The notes beneath the pieces were generated by a model. That model worked only from the letters and a program-made list of their open reading frames with translations, was not told the DNA's origin and made no database searches. Positions 2,575-46,575 of a stretch of DNA of 46,575 bases are shown in pieces; within the stretch, counting starts at the first letter, position 1, and the number at the start of each line of letters is the position of its first letter. The stretch lies in IMG/VR virus record IMGVR_UViG_3300030060_006253, positions 1-46,575 of that record; one strand, written 5' to 3'. Both the position numbers and the translations under genes were made by a program. Origin of the DNA: a virus.

Positions 2575-3006
2575 ATGTTAAAAAAAGTTTTAAAGAAACC
2601 ATCCAAGATAATAGTACAAGCCTCTCCTGTTGGTGGGTATGGTGTCTTTGCAACTGAACATTTAGGTGAAAATGAAATCATAGAAGAGGCGACATTTGTG
2701 ATGAGTGGGGTACGAACAAAACAAAAACCTGCTCCTGAATGGATCGGTCCTTCTATTTTATATCCATACCCATGTAAATGTGAGTCGTGTCAGGAGCATG
2801 GACAGCAGTTTTTGTTTTCAACTGGATATATACAACTATATAATCACTCGGATGATAATAATGTACTTTTTTCATTCGATCTAGATACAAGAATCATAAC
2901 AGTCAGAACAAATAGATCTGTTGGTGGTGGACAAGAACTATTCAACAACTACGGAAAAGAATATCAACATTTTGATTCAGAATGGTTAGGAACCTGTAAG
3001 TTTTAG
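2575..3006 (+). CDS. SET-domain protein (143 aa)
   Basis: The start codon directly follows the deaminase-like stop. The protein is a minimal SET domain: GYGVFA at residues 21-26 (cofactor-binding GxG), a middle with CKCESC at about 67-72, LYNHS at 88-92, and ELFNNYG at 121-127, the pseudoknot motifs that form the SAM and Lys sites. SET proteins methylate lysines. The target here, phage or host protein, is unknown. It lacks a full Cys-rich post-SET segment. The assignment to the fold is firm; activity is inferred. Confidence 0.78.
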   Translation: MLKKVLKKPSKIIVQASPVGGYGVFATEHLGENEIIEEATFVMSGVRTKQKPAPEWIGPSILYPYPCKCESCQEHGQQFLFSTGYIQLYNHSDDNNVLFSFDLDTRIITVRTNRSVGGGQELFNNYGKEYQHFDSEWLGTCKF

Positions 3007-3692: not shown

Positions 3693-3754
3693 CGTAGCGA
3701 AAAAATGGCGAAGTCACAGGATGATGCAGGACTACTGTAACAAAAGGAATTATT

Positions 3755-4186
3755 ATGTACGCAGCAATTTTATCTTATAGTATTATCGCAAGTGTTGTCC
3801 CACCCCCGGACTACTATGATTTTCAGATCCTAGAGACTCCAAACTTCACTCTCGAATATAGTGTGAAGTGGTGGGAGGAAAGCGATAAGTATCTTTACAC
3901 TTTGCTAAACACCCAAGACTCAACCATTGCAATTACACAATGGGCAGTGGGTGGAGCATTCGATCTAGATCTTGGTTTTGGAAACGATCTCGATCCCGGT
4001 GAGATGGAAAGCATCATTCTCTTCGGTAACGGATTTGGATATGAGAGTACGTTCGGTGTTGCGTTCTCTGATTATGATGTTACCAAGATTTTCTACGAAA
4101 CGATTGCACCCAACACAATCCCCGCACCCGGAGCAGCGATTCTACTAGGTGCTGTAGGACTAACTTCTCGTAGACGAAGAGTTTAA
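3755..4186 (+). CDS. secreted protein with PEP-CTERM-like sorting tail (143 aa)
   Basis: ATG 3755 has AAAGGA upstream. Residues 1-15 form a short hydrophobic export-like signal, and the middle (20-120) is an acidic, aromatic, beta-rich domain. The last 22 residues are the notable part: PAPG (123-126), a hydrophobic stretch (about 127-137), and RRRR (139-142). That tripartite arrangement is the PEP-CTERM/exosortase type, in a PAPG variant of the usual PEP motif. In bacteria such tails are processed by exosortase and place proteins at the cell surface. In a phage this suggests surface modification of the infected host, or a gene taken from it. Function is unknown. Confidence 0.7.
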   Translation: MYAAILSYSIIASVVPPPDYYDFQILETPNFTLEYSVKWWEESDKYLYTLLNTQDSTIAITQWAVGGAFDLDLGFGNDLDPGEMESIILFGNGFGYESTFGVAFSDYDVTKIFYETIAPNTIPAPGAAILLGAVGLTSRRRRV

Positions 4187-4193
4187 TTACTAA

Positions 4194-4278
4194 GCGGTCG
4201 TGGCGGAATAGGCAGACGCAACGGACTTAAAATCCGTCGAGGGTTAACCTCATGTGGGTTCGAGTCCCACCGACCGTA
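4194..4278 (+). tRNA. tRNA-Leu (anticodon TAA)
   Basis: An 85-nt cloverleaf with the long variable arm of a class II tRNA. The acceptor is GCGGTCG/CGACCGT, the anticodon stem ACGGA/TCCGT closes a loop containing TAA, and the T arm carries TTCGAGT. CCA is not encoded. It would read UUA/UUG leucine codons. Confidence 0.95.
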
Positions 4279-4282
4279 TTTA

Positions 4283-4356
4283 CAGAGTGTAGCACAGTTT
4301 GGTAGTGCGCCGCATTTGGGATGCGGAGGTCGTAGGTTCAAATCCTGCCACTCTGA
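4283..4356 (+). tRNA. tRNA-Pro (anticodon TGG)
   Basis: A 74-nt cloverleaf with acceptor CAGAGTG/CACTCTG, anticodon stem CCGCA/TGCGG around TTTGGGA, and T loop TTCAAAT. CCA is not encoded. It lies four bases after tRNA-Leu, and its last base abuts the stop codon of the convergent gene at 4357. It reads CCA and probably other Pro codons, which are heavily used in the proline-rich virion proteins of this window. Confidence 0.95.
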
Positions 4357-6180
4357 TTAGTAACCGCCTCCATAACCGCCGCCTGATGGTGGTGGACTCG
4401 GAGGTGGTGGACTTGGAGGGGGAGACATCGGTGGAGGCATGAACGGAGGAGGAGAAGTGAACGGAGGAGGTGACGGTGGAGGACTCTGAGGGGGAGACGG
4501 TGACGGTGGAGGAGCAGAGAAGGGTGATGGGGGAAGATCAGATACAGAGAACGGGTTGGTGGTTGTTGTTCCAGTAACAGGAATGTTTCCGCCTGAGTCT
4601 TCAGTAGATCGCAAATCACTGCCAATTGTGTCTTCGAGTTCTGGCTCAAAGAATCCAGTTAGTTCAAATGCTACGATTGGGTTTTTCCCATCATCGTTGA
4701 ATTCCCGGAGGCTTCTGACTTGGTTATCGTCTAGACCGCCTGGAGTTGTGGGACATTTTCTTGCCATGCATCTTCTAATTTTATCCCAGTGACCTTTTGT
4801 TCTACTATTTTTGTGACCACATGGACCTCCATTATGCATTCTTGCAAGATCTTCACATGTGCAACATGGTAAATCTCCGTCAGGATATTCGTGAATTGGT
4901 GTTCCAGTGCATTTGCATTTTGCTCTAGGATTTCGAGTGTATCTTCTTTGCCAACACTCTGTCATCCTTCTACCCTTTCTCTCTTTCTCTGCACAACAAG
5001 CAGCGTCTCCATTACATGGCGTGCATAGACTTCTAGCGTAGCCCGGTTGACATACCTCACAGCATCTATTGTTTCCTAGAGGACCGTCATAACCACCATT
5101 CCCATTAGAACAAGGTCCACCGGCTCCACATATATCCTGAAGCCACTGGTTATGTGAGATTTGGAACTGTCCACAGTCACATGATGTATCGCAAGGATCA
5201 CCGGGAGTGCAATCGGGTGATCCGTCACAGTCACTATCAAACTGTCTGCCTGGAGGGACACTGACTGGATCTGGTTTACCGTCCGGAGGGACATCCGTAT
5301 CACATCTACCGCAGTCAGTTGCATTTGGATCACATTTATTAGATGACTCGATCTCTTTCATGCAGTCCATCAAACAAGAGTAGTTACAACTTGGACATAC
5401 GTTCAGTCTTGGACCTGGTGCTGTTGTTGGATCCTCGGGACTGATTACTACACCTTCCTCGTATTGAAGAACAGGTTGATCTTCATCGGCTCTTCTCTCT
5501 TCAGGAGCCTGGTTTTGAGAGGGATCATAAAATCTACCATTACAACAAGGTCCAGAAACTTTAGTCTTCTTTCCAGTTATCGTATTTTTTATTATATAAA
5601 TTTGTCTCATTCCACCATCGGGACACTTTGCAAGTCCTATGCTCATGATTCCCAAACACCCTTGGGGATCTCCGATGTATGGTTCTGGATATGGTTTTGC
5701 AGTAAACTGAATACTAGGTTTTTCATCGTCTCTGAAGTCACCGATACATCCCGGTAAAACCACAGTGCATATTCCTATTTCAACATCCCAATATTTTGTA
5801 GATGATCGGAATTCAACTTCACCCTCTACATTCAATTCACCACCCATGCCTGGATGGTTAGAACAATAGTAATATAGTTTTGTGGGAGTTGATCTGTTTG
5901 GTGTCAATTTCAGTTGTGGGTTTTTGCTTGAGTCATACTCATCGTTCATAAACCTAACGTATCTTTTATATGAAACTTCTTTACCATCAATAATATATTG
6001 TACTTCACTTCCCTTATATGGAAGTCCCCCACTCCAAACACCATTGGGTGTTGTTGAAAATAATATTGCGTGTCCTGCTATTGAGTCATCGCTTAAATTA
6101 AAAGTATATGTTTCACCTATGCGAACTGTAGGAGTAGGACGATCTTCATCATTTAGTTGGTACTTATTTCCTGATGCCAT
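4357..6180 (-). CDS. virion protein: cupredoxin-like domain, Cys-rich middle, Pro-rich tail (607 aa)
   Basis: Residues 1-125 look like a cupredoxin-like beta-sandwich. H37 and the segment YYYCSNHPGMGG give C106, H109 and M112, the four ligands of a type-1 copper site. Similar domains are frequent in tail proteins of marine T4-like phages. Residues about 130-480 are very rich in cysteine (many CC, CxxC and CxCxC pairs), and a charged stretch follows. The last 60 residues are PPPSPPP/SPPPF repeats ending in GGGYGGGY, like a flexible adhesive stalk. Its ATG overlaps the stop of the upstream gene (TGATG), so the two are probably translated together. It is likely an exposed tail or fibre protein. 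Confidence 0.65.
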   Translation of the reverse strand: MASGNKYQLNDEDRPTPTVRIGETYTFNLSDDSIAGHAILFSTTPNGVWSGGLPYKGSEVQYIIDGKEVSYKRYVRFMNDEYDSSKNPQLKLTPNRSTPTKLYYYCSNHPGMGGELNVEGEVEFRSSTKYWDVEIGICTVVLPGCIGDFRDDEKPSIQFTAKPYPEPYIGDPQGCLGIMSIGLAKCPDGGMRQIYIIKNTITGKKTKVSGPCCNGRFYDPSQNQAPEERRADEDQPVLQYEEGVVISPEDPTTAPGPRLNVCPSCNYSCLMDCMKEIESSNKCDPNATDCGRCDTDVPPDGKPDPVSVPPGRQFDSDCDGSPDCTPGDPCDTSCDCGQFQISHNQWLQDICGAGGPCSNGNGGYDGPLGNNRCCEVCQPGYARSLCTPCNGDAACCAEKERKGRRMTECWQRRYTRNPRAKCKCTGTPIHEYPDGDLPCCTCEDLARMHNGGPCGHKNSRTKGHWDKIRRCMARKCPTTPGGLDDNQVRSLREFNDDGKNPIVAFELTGFFEPELEDTIGSDLRSTEDSGGNIPVTGTTTTNPFSVSDLPPSPFSAPPPSPSPPQSPPPSPPPFTSPPPFMPPPMSPPPSPPPPSPPPSGGGYGGGY

Positions 6181-7979
6181 CAGTCTTCCTCTATTCGCTT
6201 AACTGATATGTTGAATACAGTTGGTTCTTCATCAGTTACTCCGGTGCTTTCTTTTTCTGCACTATTAAAGTCTATTGATTCTGTAGCAACAGGCTCCTCT
6301 GGTTTAGGAACGGATCTAGTCGCTTCAAAAATTGTCTTTTGGGTAAGTGGACTATATCCTAAAACAGTTAGTGCAGCGGAATCAAAATCTTCCAGCACCG
6401 AAATAAGAAACAGTTTTGTTTTAGTGAAATTTCCCGTTAGTATAAGATCCGTGTACGATCCTATTTCTCCCGGAACTCCATTTTTAGAAACGATTATTCC
6501 TGACTCAAATGATGCCTCAATTTTATCACTCTCTGAAAATGTAATTCTTTTTCCCGCGTTGCTGGGGTGAGACTGATCAAATCTATAGACTCTACCTGAG
6601 TAAATGTCTGTCACCCCACCCAACTGAGCCTGTCGTCCATCAAATCTAACTTGTACTATACTGCTTAGATTCTTATCAAAAAATGCATTTGATGTCTTTC
6701 GTGTTACTCGACTTGCAGCAGATGAACTTCCGTAACTGATCTGTAATTCTGACACAGGATCAGAGACTGGAAATGTTGATGAGGGTGGATCGTAAGTAGA
6801 AGTTTCTCGATCTCGGATAAAATCACGTTCCTCTTGACTTATAGCGATTGTTCGAGATGAAACTGACGCACCCGATCCTGTTTCTGTTTCTCCCTCATCA
6901 AAACGAAATCTTTCGTCGGTGCTTCTTATTTGAGTGCAGCATTTACATCTTTTCAGACTGTCTTCGTCTGGTGAGTTAGCAAAAACTGACTCCCCGCAAC
7001 ACTCATCATTATAAGTGTCCTCGCAATATTTACTATTTCTATTGAAGTTTAAAACCGAATTGGTTTTTCGTGCTAACTGAATACATTCCCAATCATACTT
7101 ACACCCGCAACTATAAAGATCTCCTACTTCAAATACATGTCCGGTTTCTTTGTCCTCTTTTATTTCTTTTGTATATAAACAACATGATCCTCGTAGGGGT
7201 TCTTTTCCGTTTTGTCGTATCGCTCTTAGTGTTTGTTTATCCTCTGCGGACACTGAGGTTTCATTGAAGGTTCTATAGAATTTTACCGTAATAAGAGTAC
7301 CCATAAGATCCTCTTCTTTTAGTCTACCCGATACGGTAAGAACTTCAACACCATCTTCAACATGATAACCCTCTACTGGGAATCGTCCTTTGTTCAGTGG
7401 AGTTGATAATTCCACTAAATCACCCGGAACTATAGGTCTTGCATTCTTAAAAGAATAAACTGAATCTATACCAGAGTGATTTCTTATCTGGTAAGCGTAA
7501 TCGCCTGTTGCATTGTCAGTTGATTTTGATAATCTTGGTGTTGTTGTAAAATACTTAGACTCATATGTGTCGGTGAACGACTCTTTACCAGTTACGCTGG
7601 TGACATTCGCTGTTATTAAATTGTTCTTATAGGAAATGAATGTAAAAGATCCGCTAAGATCTGCCTCTATTTTATTTTTTCTTTCTTTTAGAAATGAGGC
7701 AGTTCCATCCTCTATAGAGAATGATGTCCCTGTGGTGAATCCTTTGAAGAAACTTTTGATTGACTGTAGATCTTTTCCACTCGCATGTGAGTAGTCGATA
7801 TAAACTTTACTTCCGGAGTCATAGAAAACAATCGTTGGGACAGTTTCTATTGGAGTGTTCTTTGTTACAACGTCATCTATTGTGTCGGTTATCTTTGCTC
7901 CGATTAGACTAGCAGAGTAATAAGGCGTAGCGACAGTACGCTTTGATTTCCTAGTTGTTCTAACGGATCTTTTTGCCAT
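6180..7979 (-). CDS. virion structural protein with Cys-rich module (599 aa)
   Basis: The N-terminus is strongly basic (MAKRSVRTTRKSKRTV), followed by a beta-rich region to about residue 260. Residues 264-348 form a Cys-rich module (GSCCLY...GDLYSCGC...CIQLAR...CC...CKCC) that closely parallels one in the gp8-like protein at 24228. Residues about 445-535 (VYRFDQSHPSNAGKRITF) resemble the cupredoxin-like domain of the neighbouring gene but lack the copper ligands. An AAGGG ribosome site lies upstream of the ATG. The stop overlaps the next start. Likely a tail or baseplate decoration; no T4 name can be given. Confidence 0.6.
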   Translation of the reverse strand: MAKRSVRTTRKSKRTVATPYYSASLIGAKITDTIDDVVTKNTPIETVPTIVFYDSGSKVYIDYSHASGKDLQSIKSFFKGFTTGTSFSIEDGTASFLKERKNKIEADLSGSFTFISYKNNLITANVTSVTGKESFTDTYESKYFTTTPRLSKSTDNATGDYAYQIRNHSGIDSVYSFKNARPIVPGDLVELSTPLNKGRFPVEGYHVEDGVEVLTVSGRLKEEDLMGTLITVKFYRTFNETSVSAEDKQTLRAIRQNGKEPLRGSCCLYTKEIKEDKETGHVFEVGDLYSCGCKYDWECIQLARKTNSVLNFNRNSKYCEDTYNDECCGESVFANSPDEDSLKRCKCCTQIRSTDERFRFDEGETETGSGASVSSRTIAISQEERDFIRDRETSTYDPPSSTFPVSDPVSELQISYGSSSAASRVTRKTSNAFFDKNLSSIVQVRFDGRQAQLGGVTDIYSGRVYRFDQSHPSNAGKRITFSESDKIEASFESGIIVSKNGVPGEIGSYTDLILTGNFTKTKLFLISVLEDFDSAALTVLGYSPLTQKTIFEATRSVPKPEEPVATESIDFNSAEKESTGVTDEEPTVFNISVKRIEED

Positions 7980-7999
7980 TATAACCCAACCCTTTTAAA

Positions 8000-9388
8000 T
8001 CAAGAACCGACAAACTGACAAGTGGATTGAACATTTCCAGTTGCGTCATCACTTATGACATAGACTTGATTGATGTTGCTTACCTCTAGGAACACAGATT
8101 CTCCTGGCTCTAATGTATATCCATTACTTCTTCCTCTACCTAAAGTATTGTTTCCAATTGCAATGGATCCAGATGATTTGGGTGAGTTTTTCACGTTGAT
8201 GCCGGATCTTAACTGTCGGTTTGATCCCAGTTGTTGGGCAGAGTTGGTGACAGTTAAGGATCCACTCACCAATCTACTTGGTGGGTTACTGCTTACAGTC
8301 GCTCTTATAACTCCTGATGCCAAGTCTCCCCGCAGAGAACCTATGTCTTCAGTATTTTCTCTTATGGACTGAAGGTTTCCAACTACTCCCGAGGATGGAT
8401 TTTCAATAGCATTTAGTATTGCAGCATCATTGATGTTGACTGTATTGTTTACGTTGGTGTTCAATTCATTACTTGATTGAATTTCAATTGCACCATTTGT
8501 TCCATTTTCACCGCGAATGATAACAGGATCATGTCCAGCACCCGCAGTATATCCTTGAACTCTAAGTGGAGAGAACTCAGGAGCGCCGTTTGTAACCCCA
8601 ACGGTTGAGGACACATTGACTGTTGCGTTAATATCTGCTCCACCGATCCATACCTTAGCGTAGTCGCCAGAGAAACCAAGAGTGGTTCCATCAGTGTTAA
8701 ATATATTTGTCTTTACAAAGTTTCCACCATCAGATCCAAATACCTTAACAGCATCTGTGGATGAAGTTAGAACTCTACCACCACTAATACCGATTGTGCT
8801 GTTTCCAATAAGAACACTGTCATGCTCGTAACTCAATCTTCTACCAGCGGTGACTGCGATTGGAACACCAAACCCATATCCGGGGAATACCTCTCCATTT
8901 ACTTCAGCAGTATTTCCGGCGGTGGCTCCCTGTACAAACAAACCTCTATCGTTTTGAAGGTTAGTTAACTGAACAGATCCAGTTACTTCGATTGCAGTCG
9001 CACCCTCGACACCATAAGCGAATACCTCTAGATTACTACCATATGTCGTTCCTGCGACCGCAAGGTACTCTACTGAACTGTTTAAAGTTGCGCCGTTTAT
9101 CGCACTTGGATTACCCTCAGTTGCCCAGTAATAACTTCTATTTCTGGTAAAGGTGATTCCATCACCCCGATCAACCGAAACTGACAACGCACCAGTTCCA
9201 CCTTGAATTTGGACTGGTAGAGGACGGTTGGATGTGACTCTCTCGGAGGTGTTACTATCACCCCATGCTAGTTTCATTACTTGAACATGTGCGTTAGTAA
9301 GACCAGCACCTGTTGTGTTGAAGTCAGTTCCCATCGAAGCGGTGTTTCCGCTAATGTCGATAGTGATGTTTGGATCTAAGTCTGCCAT
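8000..9388 (-). CDS. virion structural protein, repetitive beta-rich (462 aa)
   Basis: The ATG at the 9388 end is preceded by CCGGGGAG. The N-terminus (MADLDPNITIDISGNTASMG, then NAHVQVMKLAWGD and RPLPVQI) matches a protein type I recall from virions of marine T4-like phages. The rest is Gly/Asn/Thr/Val-rich with repeated strand-turn units, as in fibre or capsid-decoration shafts. There are almost no cysteines, in contrast to its neighbours. It is the first gene of the leftward block 9388-4357. An AT-rich interval (9389-9515) separates it from the divergent gp33 gene and should hold its promoter, but I see no clear consensus on this strand. Confidence 0.6.
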   Translation of the reverse strand: MADLDPNITIDISGNTASMGTDFNTTGAGLTNAHVQVMKLAWGDSNTSERVTSNRPLPVQIQGGTGALSVSVDRGDGITFTRNRSYYWATEGNPSAINGATLNSSVEYLAVAGTTYGSNLEVFAYGVEGATAIEVTGSVQLTNLQNDRGLFVQGATAGNTAEVNGEVFPGYGFGVPIAVTAGRRLSYEHDSVLIGNSTIGISGGRVLTSSTDAVKVFGSDGGNFVKTNIFNTDGTTLGFSGDYAKVWIGGADINATVNVSSTVGVTNGAPEFSPLRVQGYTAGAGHDPVIIRGENGTNGAIEIQSSNELNTNVNNTVNINDAAILNAIENPSSGVVGNLQSIRENTEDIGSLRGDLASGVIRATVSSNPPSRLVSGSLTVTNSAQQLGSNRQLRSGINVKNSPKSSGSIAIGNNTLGRGRSNGYTLEPGESVFLEVSNINQVYVISDDATGNVQSTCQFVGS

Positions 9389-9461
9389 TTTAACTCCCCG
9401 GTTGTTGGGCCTTGTACCTGTAATAGATGGTTTACTAATATATATAATCGAATTTTTCCTC

Positions 9462-9490
9462 TTGAAGCCTAAAACAATTCGTTATATAAT
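9462..9490 (+). promoter_or_regulatory. sigma70-like promoter for gp33
   Basis: TTGAAG at 9462-9467 is followed, after 17 bases, by a perfect TATAAT at 9485-9490. The predicted start is near 9497, about 20 bases before the gp33 GTG. This fits early or middle transcription by host polymerase. Confidence 0.7.
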
Positions 9491-9515
9491 TACAAAATCT
9501 AAGAAAGGAAACTAA

Positions 9516-9746
9516 GTGATAGTGAAACTAGACTTTAAAAATAGATTCTCGAAAGAAGTTGAAATGCATGTCCAGAAAAATGGAGGTGATTACATGGATG
9601 CCATCTTAGAGTTGTGTGAGAAACACGAAATAGAACCAGAGGTAGCAGGTAAGTATTTGTCAAAGCCTATAATTGAGAAACTACAGATTGAGGCTTCAGA
9701 CAGAAATTTGATCAAGCAGAAAAAAAGCGGTAAATTACCCTTTTAA
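9516..9746 (+). CDS. 33: late transcription coactivator gp33-like (76 aa)
   Basis: The start is a GTG at 9516 with AGAAAGGA upstream; no in-frame ATG fits the conserved N-terminus. The protein has the layout of short gp33 homologues from marine T4-like phages: a basic LDFKNRFSKEVE start, a DYMDAILELCEKHEIE helix at about residues 25-40, KYLSKPIIEKLQIEA, and a short basic end. In T4, gp33 binds the beta flap of host RNA polymerase and joins the sliding clamp and gp55 to activate late promoters; T4 gp33 is longer (about 112 aa). Its presence agrees with the TATAAATA late promoters seen later in the window. Confidence 0.72.
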   Translation: MIVKLDFKNRFSKEVEMHVQKNGGDYMDAILELCEKHEIEPEVAGKYLSKPIIEKLQIEASDRNLIKQKKSGKLPF

Positions 9747-9749
9747 TTG

Positions 9750-9777
9750 TTGACTGTGCTTATTTGTGCTGTACTAT
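9750..9777 (+). promoter_or_regulatory. sigma70-like promoter for gene 32
   Basis: TTGACT at 9750-9755 and TACTAT at 9772-9777 are 16 bases apart, just after the gp33 stop. It gives gp32 its own transcript in addition to read-through from gp33. Confidence 0.55.
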
Positions 9778-9788
9778 ATACTACATCG

Positions 9789-9835
9789 AACCGGGGAGTT
9801 CCCGGTGATTAATTTAGAACGGGGTAGTTCCCCGG
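9789..9835 (+). promoter_or_regulatory. tandem hairpins in the gene 32 leader
   Basis: Two near-copies of one element follow each other. The first pairs CCGGG (9791-9795) with CCCGG (9801-9805) around GAGTT. The second pairs CGGGG (9820-9824) with CCCCG (9830-9834) around TAGTT. The AAAGGAA ribosome site begins right after the second stem, and the ATG is at 9848. T4 gene 32 mRNA has a structured leader that gp32 binds to repress its own translation; this may be a counterpart with a different structure. Confidence 0.55.
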
Positions 9836-9847
9836 AAAGGAAAGCCT

Positions 9848-10726
9848 ATGTCATTTTCAGATTTTAAGAAGCGTTCACAGAACAGCATTGAAGATCTCCA
9901 AAAGAAGTTGGAGTCAACCGAGAAAAAGGAATCATATAAGGATGATCGTTTCTGGCGTCCAGAACTGGATAGTGCCTCAAACGGTTATGCTGTAATTCGT
10001 TTCCTTCCTAGTTCGGAGGGAGAGGATCTTCCGTGGGCGAAGTATTACTCTCATGGATTCCAAGGTAAGGGTGGATGGTTTATTGAAAACTGTCCTACCA
10101 CTATCGGTGGAAAGTGTCCTCTCTGTGAGGTAAACAACGATCTTTGGAACAGTGGATTGGAATCCGACAAGGATATTGCACGACAACGAAAGCGTAGACT
10201 TCACTACGTCTCCAATATTCTAGTGGTTACTGATCCCGCTAATCCACAGAACGAAGGTAAGATCTTCCTCTACAAGTATGGTAAGAAGATCTTTGATAAG
10301 ATTCAGGAATCCATGAATCCAGAATTCCAAGATGAGGATGCAGTCAATCCGTTTGACTTCTGGGGTGGTGCAGACTTCCGACTTAAGGTTCGTAAGGTTG
10401 CTGGATTTATCAACTATGATAAGTCTGAGTTCTCTACACCATCCGCTCTGATGGATGGAGACGATGCTAAGTTGGAGGAACTTTGGAAGAAGCAGTACGC
10501 ACTTGCAGAGTTTACCGATCCATCCAACTTCAAGTCCTATGACGAATTGAAGAAGCGTCTCAATGATGTTCTTGGTGGTGAAGTTCGTACGACTGAGATG
10601 GAAAATACCAAGACAGCAGAGGATGTCGCTGATACCCCTGTGTCAGAAACCCCAACAACCGAAACTTCAAGTGAAAGTGAAGAGTCTGACGCTCTTTCAT
10701 ATTTTGAAAAACTTGCTAATGAATGA
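9848..10726 (+). CDS. 32: single-stranded DNA-binding protein gp32 (292 aa)
   Basis: This is a clear gp32. The basic N-terminus (FKKRSQNS) serves cooperative self-association. The core has the zinc site H69-x12-C82-x7-C90-x2-C93, compared with H-x12-C-x9-C-x2-C in T4. The C-terminal 50 residues are Thr/Ser/Glu-rich and acidic, the tail that contacts replication and recombination partners. Length is close to T4 gp32 (301 aa). It coats ssDNA during replication, recombination and repair. It has its own promoter and structured leader and ends before a strong bidirectional terminator. Confidence 0.96.
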   Translation: MSFSDFKKRSQNSIEDLQKKLESTEKKESYKDDRFWRPELDSASNGYAVIRFLPSSEGEDLPWAKYYSHGFQGKGGWFIENCPTTIGGKCPLCEVNNDLWNSGLESDKDIARQRKRRLHYVSNILVVTDPANPQNEGKIFLYKYGKKIFDKIQESMNPEFQDEDAVNPFDFWGGADFRLKVRKVAGFINYDKSEFSTPSALMDGDDAKLEELWKKQYALAEFTDPSNFKSYDELKKRLNDVLGGEVRTTEMENTKTAEDVADTPVSETPTTETSSESEESDALSYFEKLANE

Positions 10727-20660: not shown

Positions 20661-20668
20661 TATAAATA
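20661..20668 (+). promoter_or_regulatory. T4-type late promoter
   Basis: An exact TATAAATA lies in the gap between the hub gene and gp25, 30 bases before the gp25 ATG, with AAAGGGGGAG as the ribosome site after it. It is the classical -10 element read by a gp55/gp33/clamp-dependent polymerase. Confidence 0.82.
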
Positions 20669-34703: not shown

Positions 34704-37700
34704 ATGCCAGCACTAATCGGTAGCAGTAGAATCCCAGTCATAGGAGTGATAGGAGCAACAGGTCCAACGGGTGCTATAGGTCCCTCTGGTGGAACTGGTC
34801 CCACAGGGGAAACTGGTCCTATCGGTCCTTTGGGACTAACTGGTATCGGTATTACAGCAGGATATTGGACTGAGTTTGGTGAGTATGTTGCAGGAATTGG
34901 AGTAACCCTTTCAAGTGAAGATAATAATGTTCTTCTTCTAACTTTAAACAATGAAGTTGGGGACGTAATAGAAGTCTCCGGAATGATCGGTGGAGCGATT
35001 GATCCAACAGATGGTGGATTGACATCTGGTAATTTGTTTTATACTATCACTAATGCCATTGAAGGTGAAGAATTCCATCCCATATTCATAGAGCGGGATG
35101 GAGCAACTGCGTTCTTCAAGAGTATTAATATTGTCGGAGATGATGTCACTAGCGTGACAGAAACAGATACTATTTTAATAGAGGGTAGTACATTAGAGCG
35201 TGCTGGTCAAACTGGTTCTATATTTTATCTAACACCATCTGCTAACGGAGGTATGACTGCGATATCCGCAGAAAATACTTTCTATGTTGGAGGTGAAAAT
35301 CCAAGATTTTACGCTAGGGTTCATAACAATAGATTATACTTTAACCCCTTTATCTCTAATATAAACACTCTTACTGCTGGTCAACACGCACTTTCAAGTA
35401 TCATCCCCGGCTTGTTTTTTGATGTAGCACCCAAAACTCTTAACTCTGATGCAGACTTGGGGGGTGTAACTAGTGGGACGTTTACTCCTAGAAAAGTTAT
35501 CGGTAGAACCATTCCCCAGCAGGGTGAGGCGGTTGACGTATTAACTGCTATTAACAGTGTTCCAACTATTAACGAGGATGGAACATTCGATGGATCAAAT
35601 TTTGCAACTTTATTTAATGAAGTGTTTCTTGGTATTACCGGAAATCGTCCCGATTTTCCCGGAGACAATCTTTCAGCAAGAGATGTATTTGGAATAGCGT
35701 CCGAGCCAGTGTTTATCAGTCAGGTTCCAGGCTCCACTTTATCTACCGCTGGAGTAGGATCTTGTTGCTGGTGTGAGAAAAAGGCGAGGGTAGAGGACAC
35801 CAACGTAGAATATGACTACGGATGTGGTGACTATACAACCAAGGCTTTCTGTGACTCAATTGGTGGTGAATGGCAACGAAATACAACGTGCTTCCAGAGA
35901 CCTGGTGGGTGTGGATCCAATCGAGGGGTTTGTTGTGTAAATGGAAAATGCGTAAGTTCTACTAGAGAAAAATGCGAAGATATTTTTCAAGGGTATTACG
36001 TTGAAGATTATACATGTCAGGAAATAGAAGATGAATTTGGTGGTTGTCCAAACTTCTGTGATATCACGGGTGCTTGTTGTGTTGATGGTGATTGTTTAGA
36101 ATTGACTGAAGGTGAATGTGCATTAATAGACAATTCATTGTGGTTCCCTGAAGGTTGCGACAATGTAAACTGCTGCACTCAAGCAAACTTTGTTGGTGCT
36201 TGCTGCATAGATGAGTTCTGTTTTGATAATGTAACTCCATATGATTGTAAGGGACTTACATCTGGTAGTGATACTAGTGTTGGTGTTTTTCATGGTATTG
36301 GATCTGAGTGTGTCGTATCACCCAATAGACCTGACAACGCCTGTACATTTGATCCTAGCGGATTCTATCCTGGCTGTTACTTTGAAGAACTTGGACATGG
36401 ACTGGTAAATACAGGAACTGATATCTTTGGATGTTGTACGGATCTAAATGAGTTTTACAACCAGACTCCGGATGACGGAGAGGAAGAAGGATTCAGAAGA
36501 GGTGATAATAGAAGACAAAACCCACCAAACTCTGCTCCTAACAGAAATGCACTCAAAACAAATAATCCTAGATCCACTGGTGAAGAATTAGGTTGTATTA
36601 AAAATCCACTTATCATGGGACTTAATGTTGGGGATAAATTTGGAGGGGGAACACTTGTTGGATTCATAGGACACCCTGGTCCGTTCGAGGATTACGCTGG
36701 ACAAAAAATGATAGGAAGCACACCAAAATGCATAGAGTCATCGTGTGCCACTGATCCAGAAAATACCAATAACTTCACTTATGTTCTTCATAGTGGATAC
36801 AATGGTAGATGCTTCTGTGATCACACAGTTCCAATGCAAGTATCTAAAACCTTTAACACGGGTGATCCTCTTGGTTCATATGAGCCGGAGATGTTAGTAA
36901 ATGCTGCTACTGATTTTGGTGGCAACTTAGGACTTAAAGATATAACTGACAGATTTATGAGAGAGTCTGTATATGGAACAGATTTCGTCACACTGTCAAA
37001 CTCCACAAATCTGAAGTATAAGGGAGATTGTCCAGATAGATCAATCAAAATACACAGAAGATGGGCATTGATTGTTGCAGATGAAAACATTGAAGTAAAC
37101 GGGGATCAGAATCTGGAATGGGGTATGTCACAAAGTGCTGGACACTTCGTAGAAGAGAAAACCCAACCCATTCCTGTCGTCGGAACTTGTGCTGTTGATG
37201 GACTTTTGAATACAAGAATGTTTGATAAAACCAGTATTGGAAGAGCAAACTGGTTCAAGTCAACTAGTTGGAAGTACAATGAGGAATTTTCATATGAGGA
37301 CATGTTCTCGGTGGAGGATCTGTTATATAAAACATTCGATCACACAAATCAAAAAGACAGCGAATCATTTGGTTGGGACAAAAACACAACACCAGACACT
37401 TGGAAAAACACTGACGGATCTCTGAACATTGAAAAATGGAGGGGTGAATATTCCAAGATGTGGGAGTCCAACAACCCAGAGGATACTGCTGTCAAACAGA
37501 TATCAGTCCTGAATGAGAGTAGAGTTCTAAATGATAAATTTGTTGCCTTCTCTGACTGGTATATTCCTAGTGTGGTTGAACTTGGAATGATGTATGATGC
37601 TTGCAGAAACTATCAGTTAAATACTTCACTATTGTATAATGGAGCAACTCCAATGACAGGAAAATACTGGAGTTCCACAACTGCAAGTAGAGTGAATGAT

Positions 37701-37979
37701 AGAGGACAGTTCAAGGGAATAAATCCAAACTTAGAGTCTGCTGAAAATTGGGATGAGGAATATGATGCAGAGACTCTAAGAACAGTTGGACACGCACACA
37801 GCATGATCTTCCAAGATTTTGCAACGGGACAGACTGAAAGTACTTATAGAAGATTTGGTAAACTTTGTTCTCTAAGACCTGTAAGAAGAGTACCAGTTTA
37901 TGTAATGGAAATTGATACATATATGGACAGTACAATGGGCGGTTGTCCAGACTGCGAATCTCAAGAATGCAGATGTTGA
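34704..37979 (+). CDS. giant collagen-like, Cys-rich fibre with Lcl/DUF1566-like end, paralogue (1091 aa)
   Basis: It starts one base after the preceding stop. Residues about 11-50 are GATGPTGAIGPSGG-type collagen triplets. Cys-rich repeats cover about 351-577: GVCCVNGKCVSSTREKCEDI, GACCVDGDCLELTEGECALI and GACCIDEFCFDNVTPYDCKG are three clear copies of one unit. The C-terminal domain runs from about 637 (LNVGDKFGGGTLVGF) through WYIPSVVELGMM (about 952), YWSSTTAS (about 987) and LRPVRRV (about 1058), matching the previous gene. The protein ends in a short CPDCESQECRC tail. It appears to be a diverged tandem copy of the gene at 30713 and likely a receptor-binding fibre. Confidence 0.7.
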   Translation: MPALIGSSRIPVIGVIGATGPTGAIGPSGGTGPTGETGPIGPLGLTGIGITAGYWTEFGEYVAGIGVTLSSEDNNVLLLTLNNEVGDVIEVSGMIGGAIDPTDGGLTSGNLFYTITNAIEGEEFHPIFIERDGATAFFKSINIVGDDVTSVTETDTILIEGSTLERAGQTGSIFYLTPSANGGMTAISAENTFYVGGENPRFYARVHNNRLYFNPFISNINTLTAGQHALSSIIPGLFFDVAPKTLNSDADLGGVTSGTFTPRKVIGRTIPQQGEAVDVLTAINSVPTINEDGTFDGSNFATLFNEVFLGITGNRPDFPGDNLSARDVFGIASEPVFISQVPGSTLSTAGVGSCCWCEKKARVEDTNVEYDYGCGDYTTKAFCDSIGGEWQRNTTCFQRPGGCGSNRGVCCVNGKCVSSTREKCEDIFQGYYVEDYTCQEIEDEFGGCPNFCDITGACCVDGDCLELTEGECALIDNSLWFPEGCDNVNCCTQANFVGACCIDEFCFDNVTPYDCKGLTSGSDTSVGVFHGIGSECVVSPNRPDNACTFDPSGFYPGCYFEELGHGLVNTGTDIFGCCTDLNEFYNQTPDDGEEEGFRRGDNRRQNPPNSAPNRNALKTNNPRSTGEELGCIKNPLIMGLNVGDKFGGGTLVGFIGHPGPFEDYAGQKMIGSTPKCIESSCATDPENTNNFTYVLHSGYNGRCFCDHTVPMQVSKTFNTGDPLGSYEPEMLVNAATDFGGNLGLKDITDRFMRESVYGTDFVTLSNSTNLKYKGDCPDRSIKIHRRWALIVADENIEVNGDQNLEWGMSQSAGHFVEEKTQPIPVVGTCAVDGLLNTRMFDKTSIGRANWFKSTSWKYNEEFSYEDMFSVEDLLYKTFDHTNQKDSESFGWDKNTTPDTWKNTDGSLNIEKWRGEYSKMWESNNPEDTAVKQISVLNESRVLNDKFVAFSDWYIPSVVELGMMYDACRNYQLNTSLLYNGATPMTGKYWSSTTASRVNDRGQFKGINPNLESAENWDEEYDAETLRTVGHAHSMIFQDFATGQTESTYRRFGKLCSLRPVRRVPVYVMEIDTYMDSTMGGCPDCESQECRC

Positions 37980-46269: not shown

Positions 46270-46575
46270 TAAAAAAAGTATTGATGAAAAAATATCAGAA
46301 GCACTTGATGTGGAGTTTGATAAAACAGAAATAGAACCAAAGAAACCAAAAGAAATTTCTGTACCAAAAGAGGAGATGCTTGCTCTTCGTGAGAAACATG
46401 CTAACAAAGATTATGCAGATGCTAGAGCGAGTCTCAAAGATCTAATCGATGTTGGTAGAGATGCAGTTGATGGTATTCTAAAGGTAGCATCCGAAGGTGA
46501 TCATCCAAGAGCCTATGAAGTAGCATCACAGATGCTCAAAACTGTATCTGAAATGAATAAAGATCTGATCGGTTT
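46259..46575 (+). CDS. 16: terminase small subunit gp16 (partial, 3' end outside the window)
   Basis: ATG 46259 lies inside the end of gp15. The visible 105 codons begin with a charged, acidic-basic stretch. Then comes DYADARASLKDLIDVGRDAVDGIL (about 54-77 by position) and HPRAYEVASQMLKTVSEMN, the helical core of the gp16 family, which forms a ring to load the large terminase onto DNA. It is cut by the window edge. Overlap with gp15 implies coupling. Confidence 0.92.
   Translation, partial: MSSDKKSIDEKISEALDVEFDKTEIEPKKPKEISVPKEEMLALREKHANKDYADARASLKDLIDVGRDAVDGILKVASEGDHPRAYEVASQMLKTVSEMNKDLIG

Follow-up and report, generated by a model that had tools for sequence, protein, structure and literature searches.

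Why should a phage encode a protein whose C-terminus resembles the sorting tail of the bacterial PEP-CTERM system? The question is raised by a gene at positions 3755 to 4186 of the window, the 46,575-nucleotide stretch of viral DNA analysed here (positions 1 to 46,575 of IMG/VR record IMGVR_UViG_3300030060_006253, the full length of which is 52,459 bp). PEP-CTERM proteins constitute the cargo side of a sorting system with an exosortase, EpsH (Haft et al., 2006; PMC1569441). Many Gram-negative bacteria deliver proteins to the outer cell surface by means of this C-terminal tag. The available parts of the literature joining PEP-CTERM and phage contained no account of such proteins in phage genomes. 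An initial annotation had proposed a phage-encoded protein with a PEP-CTERM-like tail and an N-terminal export signal, and had suggested a profile search of the C-terminus, structure prediction and a search of related phages as checks.

The window gene and its phage

The carrier of the gene is a T4-like phage. PHROG matches on the record comprise gp32, gp6 and other baseplate proteins, and its T4-type terminase (Terminase_6C, E = 1.1e-15) has its closest relatives in Synechococcus T4-like phages, with 58% identity. A T4-type major capsid protein was found on two of the larger records, one bearing a member of the window family and one a member of family b, described below. No late-promoter motif TATAAATA was found near the window gene; exact copies of this T4-type motif occur only twice in the window, at 20661 and 27010 (+), both in the structural-gene part. 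The gene and its surroundings are composed of the following features.

3744–3748 (+): Shine–Dalgarno-like AAGGA, 6 bases before the ATG, likewise present in L004
3755–4186 (+): gene for a 143-residue PEP-CTERM-like protein, including the stop codon, from the translation; its homologues are five distinct phage protein variants
3755–3799 (+): hydrophobic N-terminus, residues 1–15, a putative, atypical export signal without basic residues (mean Kyte–Doolittle value 1.86, charge 0)
3800–4120 (+): core, residues 16–122, conserved (dN/dS 0.02–0.09) and probably beta-rich (low-confidence model, pLDDT 42)
4121–4183 (+): putative sorting tail, residues 123–143, PAPG / hydrophobic / RRRR, from TIGR02595 scores and a signature present in six distinct proteins
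4169–4180 (+): terminal RRRR, residues 139–142, from the translation
4194–4278 (+): tRNA-Leu (TAA), directly downstream of the gene, the same neighbour as in L004 (ARAGORN)
4283–4356 (+): tRNA-Pro (TGG) (ARAGORN)

The arrangement that had been described for residues 123–142 is indeed present in the translation: these residues read PAPGAAILLGAVGLTSRRRR and are followed by a final V143 (residues 123–143, PAPGAAILLGAVGLTSRRRRV), so ordered that P-A-P-G precedes a 12-residue hydrophobic stretch and RRRR. The proposed export signal was borne out only in part. The N-terminus, MYAAILSYSIIASVV, is hydrophobic, as are those of the homologues, but Lys or Arg is found there in none of the six distinct family proteins (net charge 0 or −1), and inspection of the window protein revealed no classical cleavage site. 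Searches of Pfam, PHROG and PDB sequences with the core returned zero matches, and the structure prediction gave a poor AlphaFold model (mean pLDDT 42). Among the open reading frames of at least 50 residues in the window and in positions 46300–52459 of the record, no second one has a C-terminus in which Pro-x-Pro occurs together with a hydrophobic stretch and terminal basic residues.

Several other genes in the window and on related contigs were recorded. Upstream of the gene lie a DUF6065 protein (824–1693, +; PF19541, E = 1.9e-64) and a SET-domain protein (2575–3006, +; PF00856, E = 4.7e-9), while the minus strand at 4357–9388 holds three adjacent large open reading frames of 607, 599 and 462 residues with no Pfam match, the first of which is Cys-rich and ends in Pro-rich repeats. 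A 1091-residue protein (34704–37979, +) gave weak collagen-repeat and Lcl_C matches, both below the curated cut-offs. Related phage contigs carry host-like genes for HSP20 (L043, 3564–4043, +), a UDP-glucose/GDP-mannose dehydrogenase (L004, 8119–8982, +) and a phosphate permease (L015, 288–1232, −; PF01384, below its cut-off), and a ribonucleotide-reductase-like gene at L012 1–2753, read by eye, is seemingly interrupted by an intein.

Relationship of the tail to PEP-CTERM

With the cut-offs curated by NCBI, 16 bits for TIGR02595 (PEP_CTERM) and 20 bits for MYXO-CTERM, the profile search had a divided outcome: the window protein reached 12.3 bits against TIGR02595 (14.4 in the genome search), below the cut-off, whereas its homologue in L002, 87% identical to it, reached 19.6 bits and lies above it. 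The L004 homologue had no match to this profile, and the L043 homologue none at E up to 0.1. Scores above the cut-off were obtained for ten of 29 phage records, which had been chosen by tail pattern, versus none of 14 control genomes. A hydrophobic stretch followed by a C-terminal arginine cluster is found in all six distinct proteins; the eponymous Pro-Glu-Pro is replaced by Pro-Ala-Pro or Pro-Thr-Pro in every member of the window family. A MYXO-CTERM identity was rejected because the window tail is devoid of Cys, which is described as invariant in that motif (PMC11980579); the score, 14.7 bits, is below 20. Taken with the conserved pattern and its recurrence in further protein families of related phages, the L002 score upholds the description of a phage-encoded protein with a PEP-CTERM-like tail.

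Homologues and selection

The search of related phages yielded both homologues and further tail-bearing families in IMG/VR. Close homologues of the window protein are encoded by L002 and L003 (identical proteins), L004 and L043, and distant ones by L011, L015 (31–32% identity) and L027, the protein of which equals that of L015; the match of the window protein to L011 has a BLASTP E value of 2e-7. Core dN/dS is about 0.02–0.09 between the window protein and its three close homologues and 0.13 for the pair L015–L011; for the tail, the same pairs give 0.4–1.0. Absence of the tail from close relatives had been named as grounds for abandoning the annotation, and the relatives were found to keep it: P-x-P-G, a hydrophobic stretch and at least three terminal basic residues are present in all six distinct proteins. 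Under unconstrained mutation of the window tail to the observed divergence, this signature survived in 574 of 200,000 trials (0.29%), under a simple null of equal base changes in one lineage with the signature picked by the analyst. The retention of the tail signature in six divergent proteins exceeds chance.

The tail as a separable module

In L002, L011 and L015 the gene is preceded by common DNA that is the end of another gene. In L002, L003 and L015 this upstream gene reads as RecA/UvsX-type (351 residues) and is surrounded by polymerase-, helicase- and primase-like genes, all named from sequence and size. The window and L004 carry the gene at another locus, just before tRNA-Leu(TAA). Between L002 and L015, 88% of the tail DNA is shared but just 55% of the core DNA; between L002 and the window, 95% of the core DNA is shared but just 65% of the tail. 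The simplest reading is that cores may have been swapped between loci, each locus keeping its own tail, although the same picture would arise if the end of the gene had been replaced in some lineages. Because the signature is kept despite divergence, and the tail goes with the locus while the cores differ, the tail is a selected, separable module.

Other tail-bearing families

In a scan of IMG/VR, a DNA pattern encoding P[AT]PG-x3-LLG-x3-L-x3-[RS]3 hit 30 viral contigs; our own estimate of the number due to chance, calculated from base frequencies with a size assumed for the collection, is about one. Clear tails were seen in 28 of the 30 matches (27 of 29 aligned, plus the L003 copy, identical to that of L002), and they fall into the window family and a family b. 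Proteins of family b, about 221 residues long, carry textbook signal peptides and occur on 54 contigs; the form P[AT]PGxxALLG recurs in them behind unrelated cores. The family b model (pLDDT 60) consists largely of beta structure, is of moderate confidence in its central part (blocks of 65–86, residues 61 to 150) and had no significant match in the PDB, the best being jelly-roll or carbohydrate-binding-like (E = 3.9e-3, TM 0.2–0.3).

A third group, family c, which ends in VVPAPSALALLAVAGIVGRRRR or similar and has classical signal peptides as family b does, provides a second tail-bearing protein in three of the pattern records. L015 likewise has a second tail-bearing open reading frame (9199–9903, −), ending in VIPAPSALAFLLMFPVMRRRRR and with no Pfam match. 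Scanning for classical VPEP tails added 15 contigs, and about 13 of the 14 aligned look like real tails; the two that were scored, in L110 and L108, reach 30.0 and 26.0 bits against PEP_CTERM, well past the cut-off. These VPEP-type contigs (L097, L104, L106–L108, L110 and others) are viral by record and may be temperate phages or host DNA. Among the 50,697 described phage records of INPHARED there was no relative of the window protein or of family b, the L015 protein having only chance-level matches there, and the plasmid search gave no match to family b or its tail. The sequences thus point to several exosortase-type protein families in uncultured T4-like phages, with apparent signs of modular exchange.

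Source of the exosortase and probable host

No exosortase gene was found on the 29 phage records, and the host must therefore supply the enzyme. Type I dockerin domains scored above the cut-off on six of 42 records, and in one case the dockerin gene immediately follows a family b gene. The record that holds the window has no dockerin. A dockerin-like repeat was noted by eye in L043, where Pfam gave no hit. Because of these domains, and because cohesin and dockerin surface modules are reported in freshwater Phycisphaerae (PMC6461901), the host is likely to be a planctomycete, putatively Phycisphaerae-like. Genome scans with the window protein found no relative, and those with the tail, a query too short to inform, returned 588 pattern stretches, none of which was confirmed. 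A cyanobacterial host was also considered, since the terminase is closest to those of Synechococcus phages; a psbA-type gene is missing from 15 larger records, which is mildly against such a host, and it is not favoured.

Discussion

The exosortase-type tags on these phage proteins suggest that the phages re-coat the cells they infect. In the reading to which we assign a probability of about 0.6, the window gene encodes a small phage-made surface protein that is exported by the host through Sec, sorted by an exosortase and left with its core on display, the changed surface being the benefit. The host Sec machinery would export the protein during infection, a host-supplied exosortase would recognize the C-terminal PAPG / hydrophobic / RRRR tail, and the core, of about 105 residues, would be displayed by the infected cell at its outer surface or in its matrix; the tail would serve as a reusable sorting module and the displayed core as a variable payload. 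The most likely benefit would be a surface altered against competing phages, through superinfection exclusion or receptor masking; alternatively, aggregation or the matrix may be altered. We infer each of these steps: export, exosortase processing, surface location and benefit. The weakest link of the mechanism is the N-terminus of the window family, which lacks basic residues, a problem of which families b and c are free. Also counting against display are the window score below the cut-off, the Ala or Thr in place of Glu and the shortness of the 12-residue hydrophobic stretch.

Alternatively, the protein could belong to the inner membrane. The short hydrophobic tail followed by arginines would then be a generic anchor obeying the positive-inside rule, and the core would act at this membrane or in the periplasm, for instance by preventing DNA entry or peptidoglycan degradation as T4 Imm and Sp do. 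The sub-threshold window score and the atypical N-terminus agree with such a protein; a generic anchor, however, has no need of P-x-P-G, the L002 homologue lies above the PEP_CTERM cut-off and P[AT]PGxxALLG is found again in family b with unrelated cores, which leaves this explanation unlikely. That the protein decorates the virion or associates with the phage tail, its hydrophobic end being incidental, is very unlikely. Virion proteins often have beta-rich cores, although the present models are of low to moderate confidence. Against this reading, the gene is located beside replication genes (L002, L003, L015) or tRNAs, away from structural genes, and no late promoter precedes it, both of which favour a function in the infected cell over one in the particle; the signal peptides of families b and c are, moreover, of the classical type.

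Retained tails, exchanged cores and several tail-bearing proteins per phage would also suit a decoy, a high dose of which would occupy the exosortase and keep the host from displaying its own surface proteins, which may include receptors or defences; strong conservation of the core (dN/dS 0.02–0.13) is not something that a decoy would require, and the chances of this reading appear slim. The resemblance of the tails to bacterial PEP-CTERM tails could finally reflect host cargo acquired recently and of no benefit to the phage, an explanation that is disfavoured by the strong purifying selection on the core, sits badly with family b on 54 phage contigs and is highly improbable.

Small phage proteins that reside in the envelope of the infected cell and cause superinfection exclusion include T5 Llp, the lactococcal Sie proteins and T4 Imm and Sp, which rely on lipoprotein or membrane-anchor signals. 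The window protein is likewise small, phage-encoded and putatively placed in the envelope, but differs from them in bearing an exosortase-type tail. With the PEP-CTERM proteins of the EpsH system the window family shares a hydrophobic N-terminus, a C-terminal Pro-x-Pro, a hydrophobic stretch and an arginine cluster, and the phage proteins share with them cores of no known family and the occurrence of unrelated cores behind shared tails. On the other hand, the phage protein is encoded by a T4-like phage with no exosortase on the record, has Ala or Thr for the Glu of PEP and an N-terminus without basic residues, and in the window copy falls below the cut-off. MYXO-CTERM proteins, of the myxosortase system, resemble the window tail in the hydrophobic stretch and terminal arginines, and differ from it in the Cys and in the score.

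Surface display may extend beyond this one protein. A wider proposal, tentative and somewhat less likely than not, is that T4-like phages of planctomycetes carry an exosortase-sorted display set with a fixed tail and swappable cores, some phages having two such proteins, and dockerins being encoded on the same genomes. With this set they would re-coat the infected cell by way of host sorting, a takeover of the surface of which no earlier description was found. PEP-CTERM/exosortase sorting is widespread and the role of most of its cargo is not known; T4-like phages with strongly selected cargo would show that the pathway matters during infection, and phage-borne PEP-CTERM proteins would give compact, conserved test proteins for it. 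If a planctomycete host is confirmed, they would also offer a handle on phages of Planctomycetota. The constant tail with exchanged cores provides a well-defined case in which the idea of a modular coat made by a phage can be tested.
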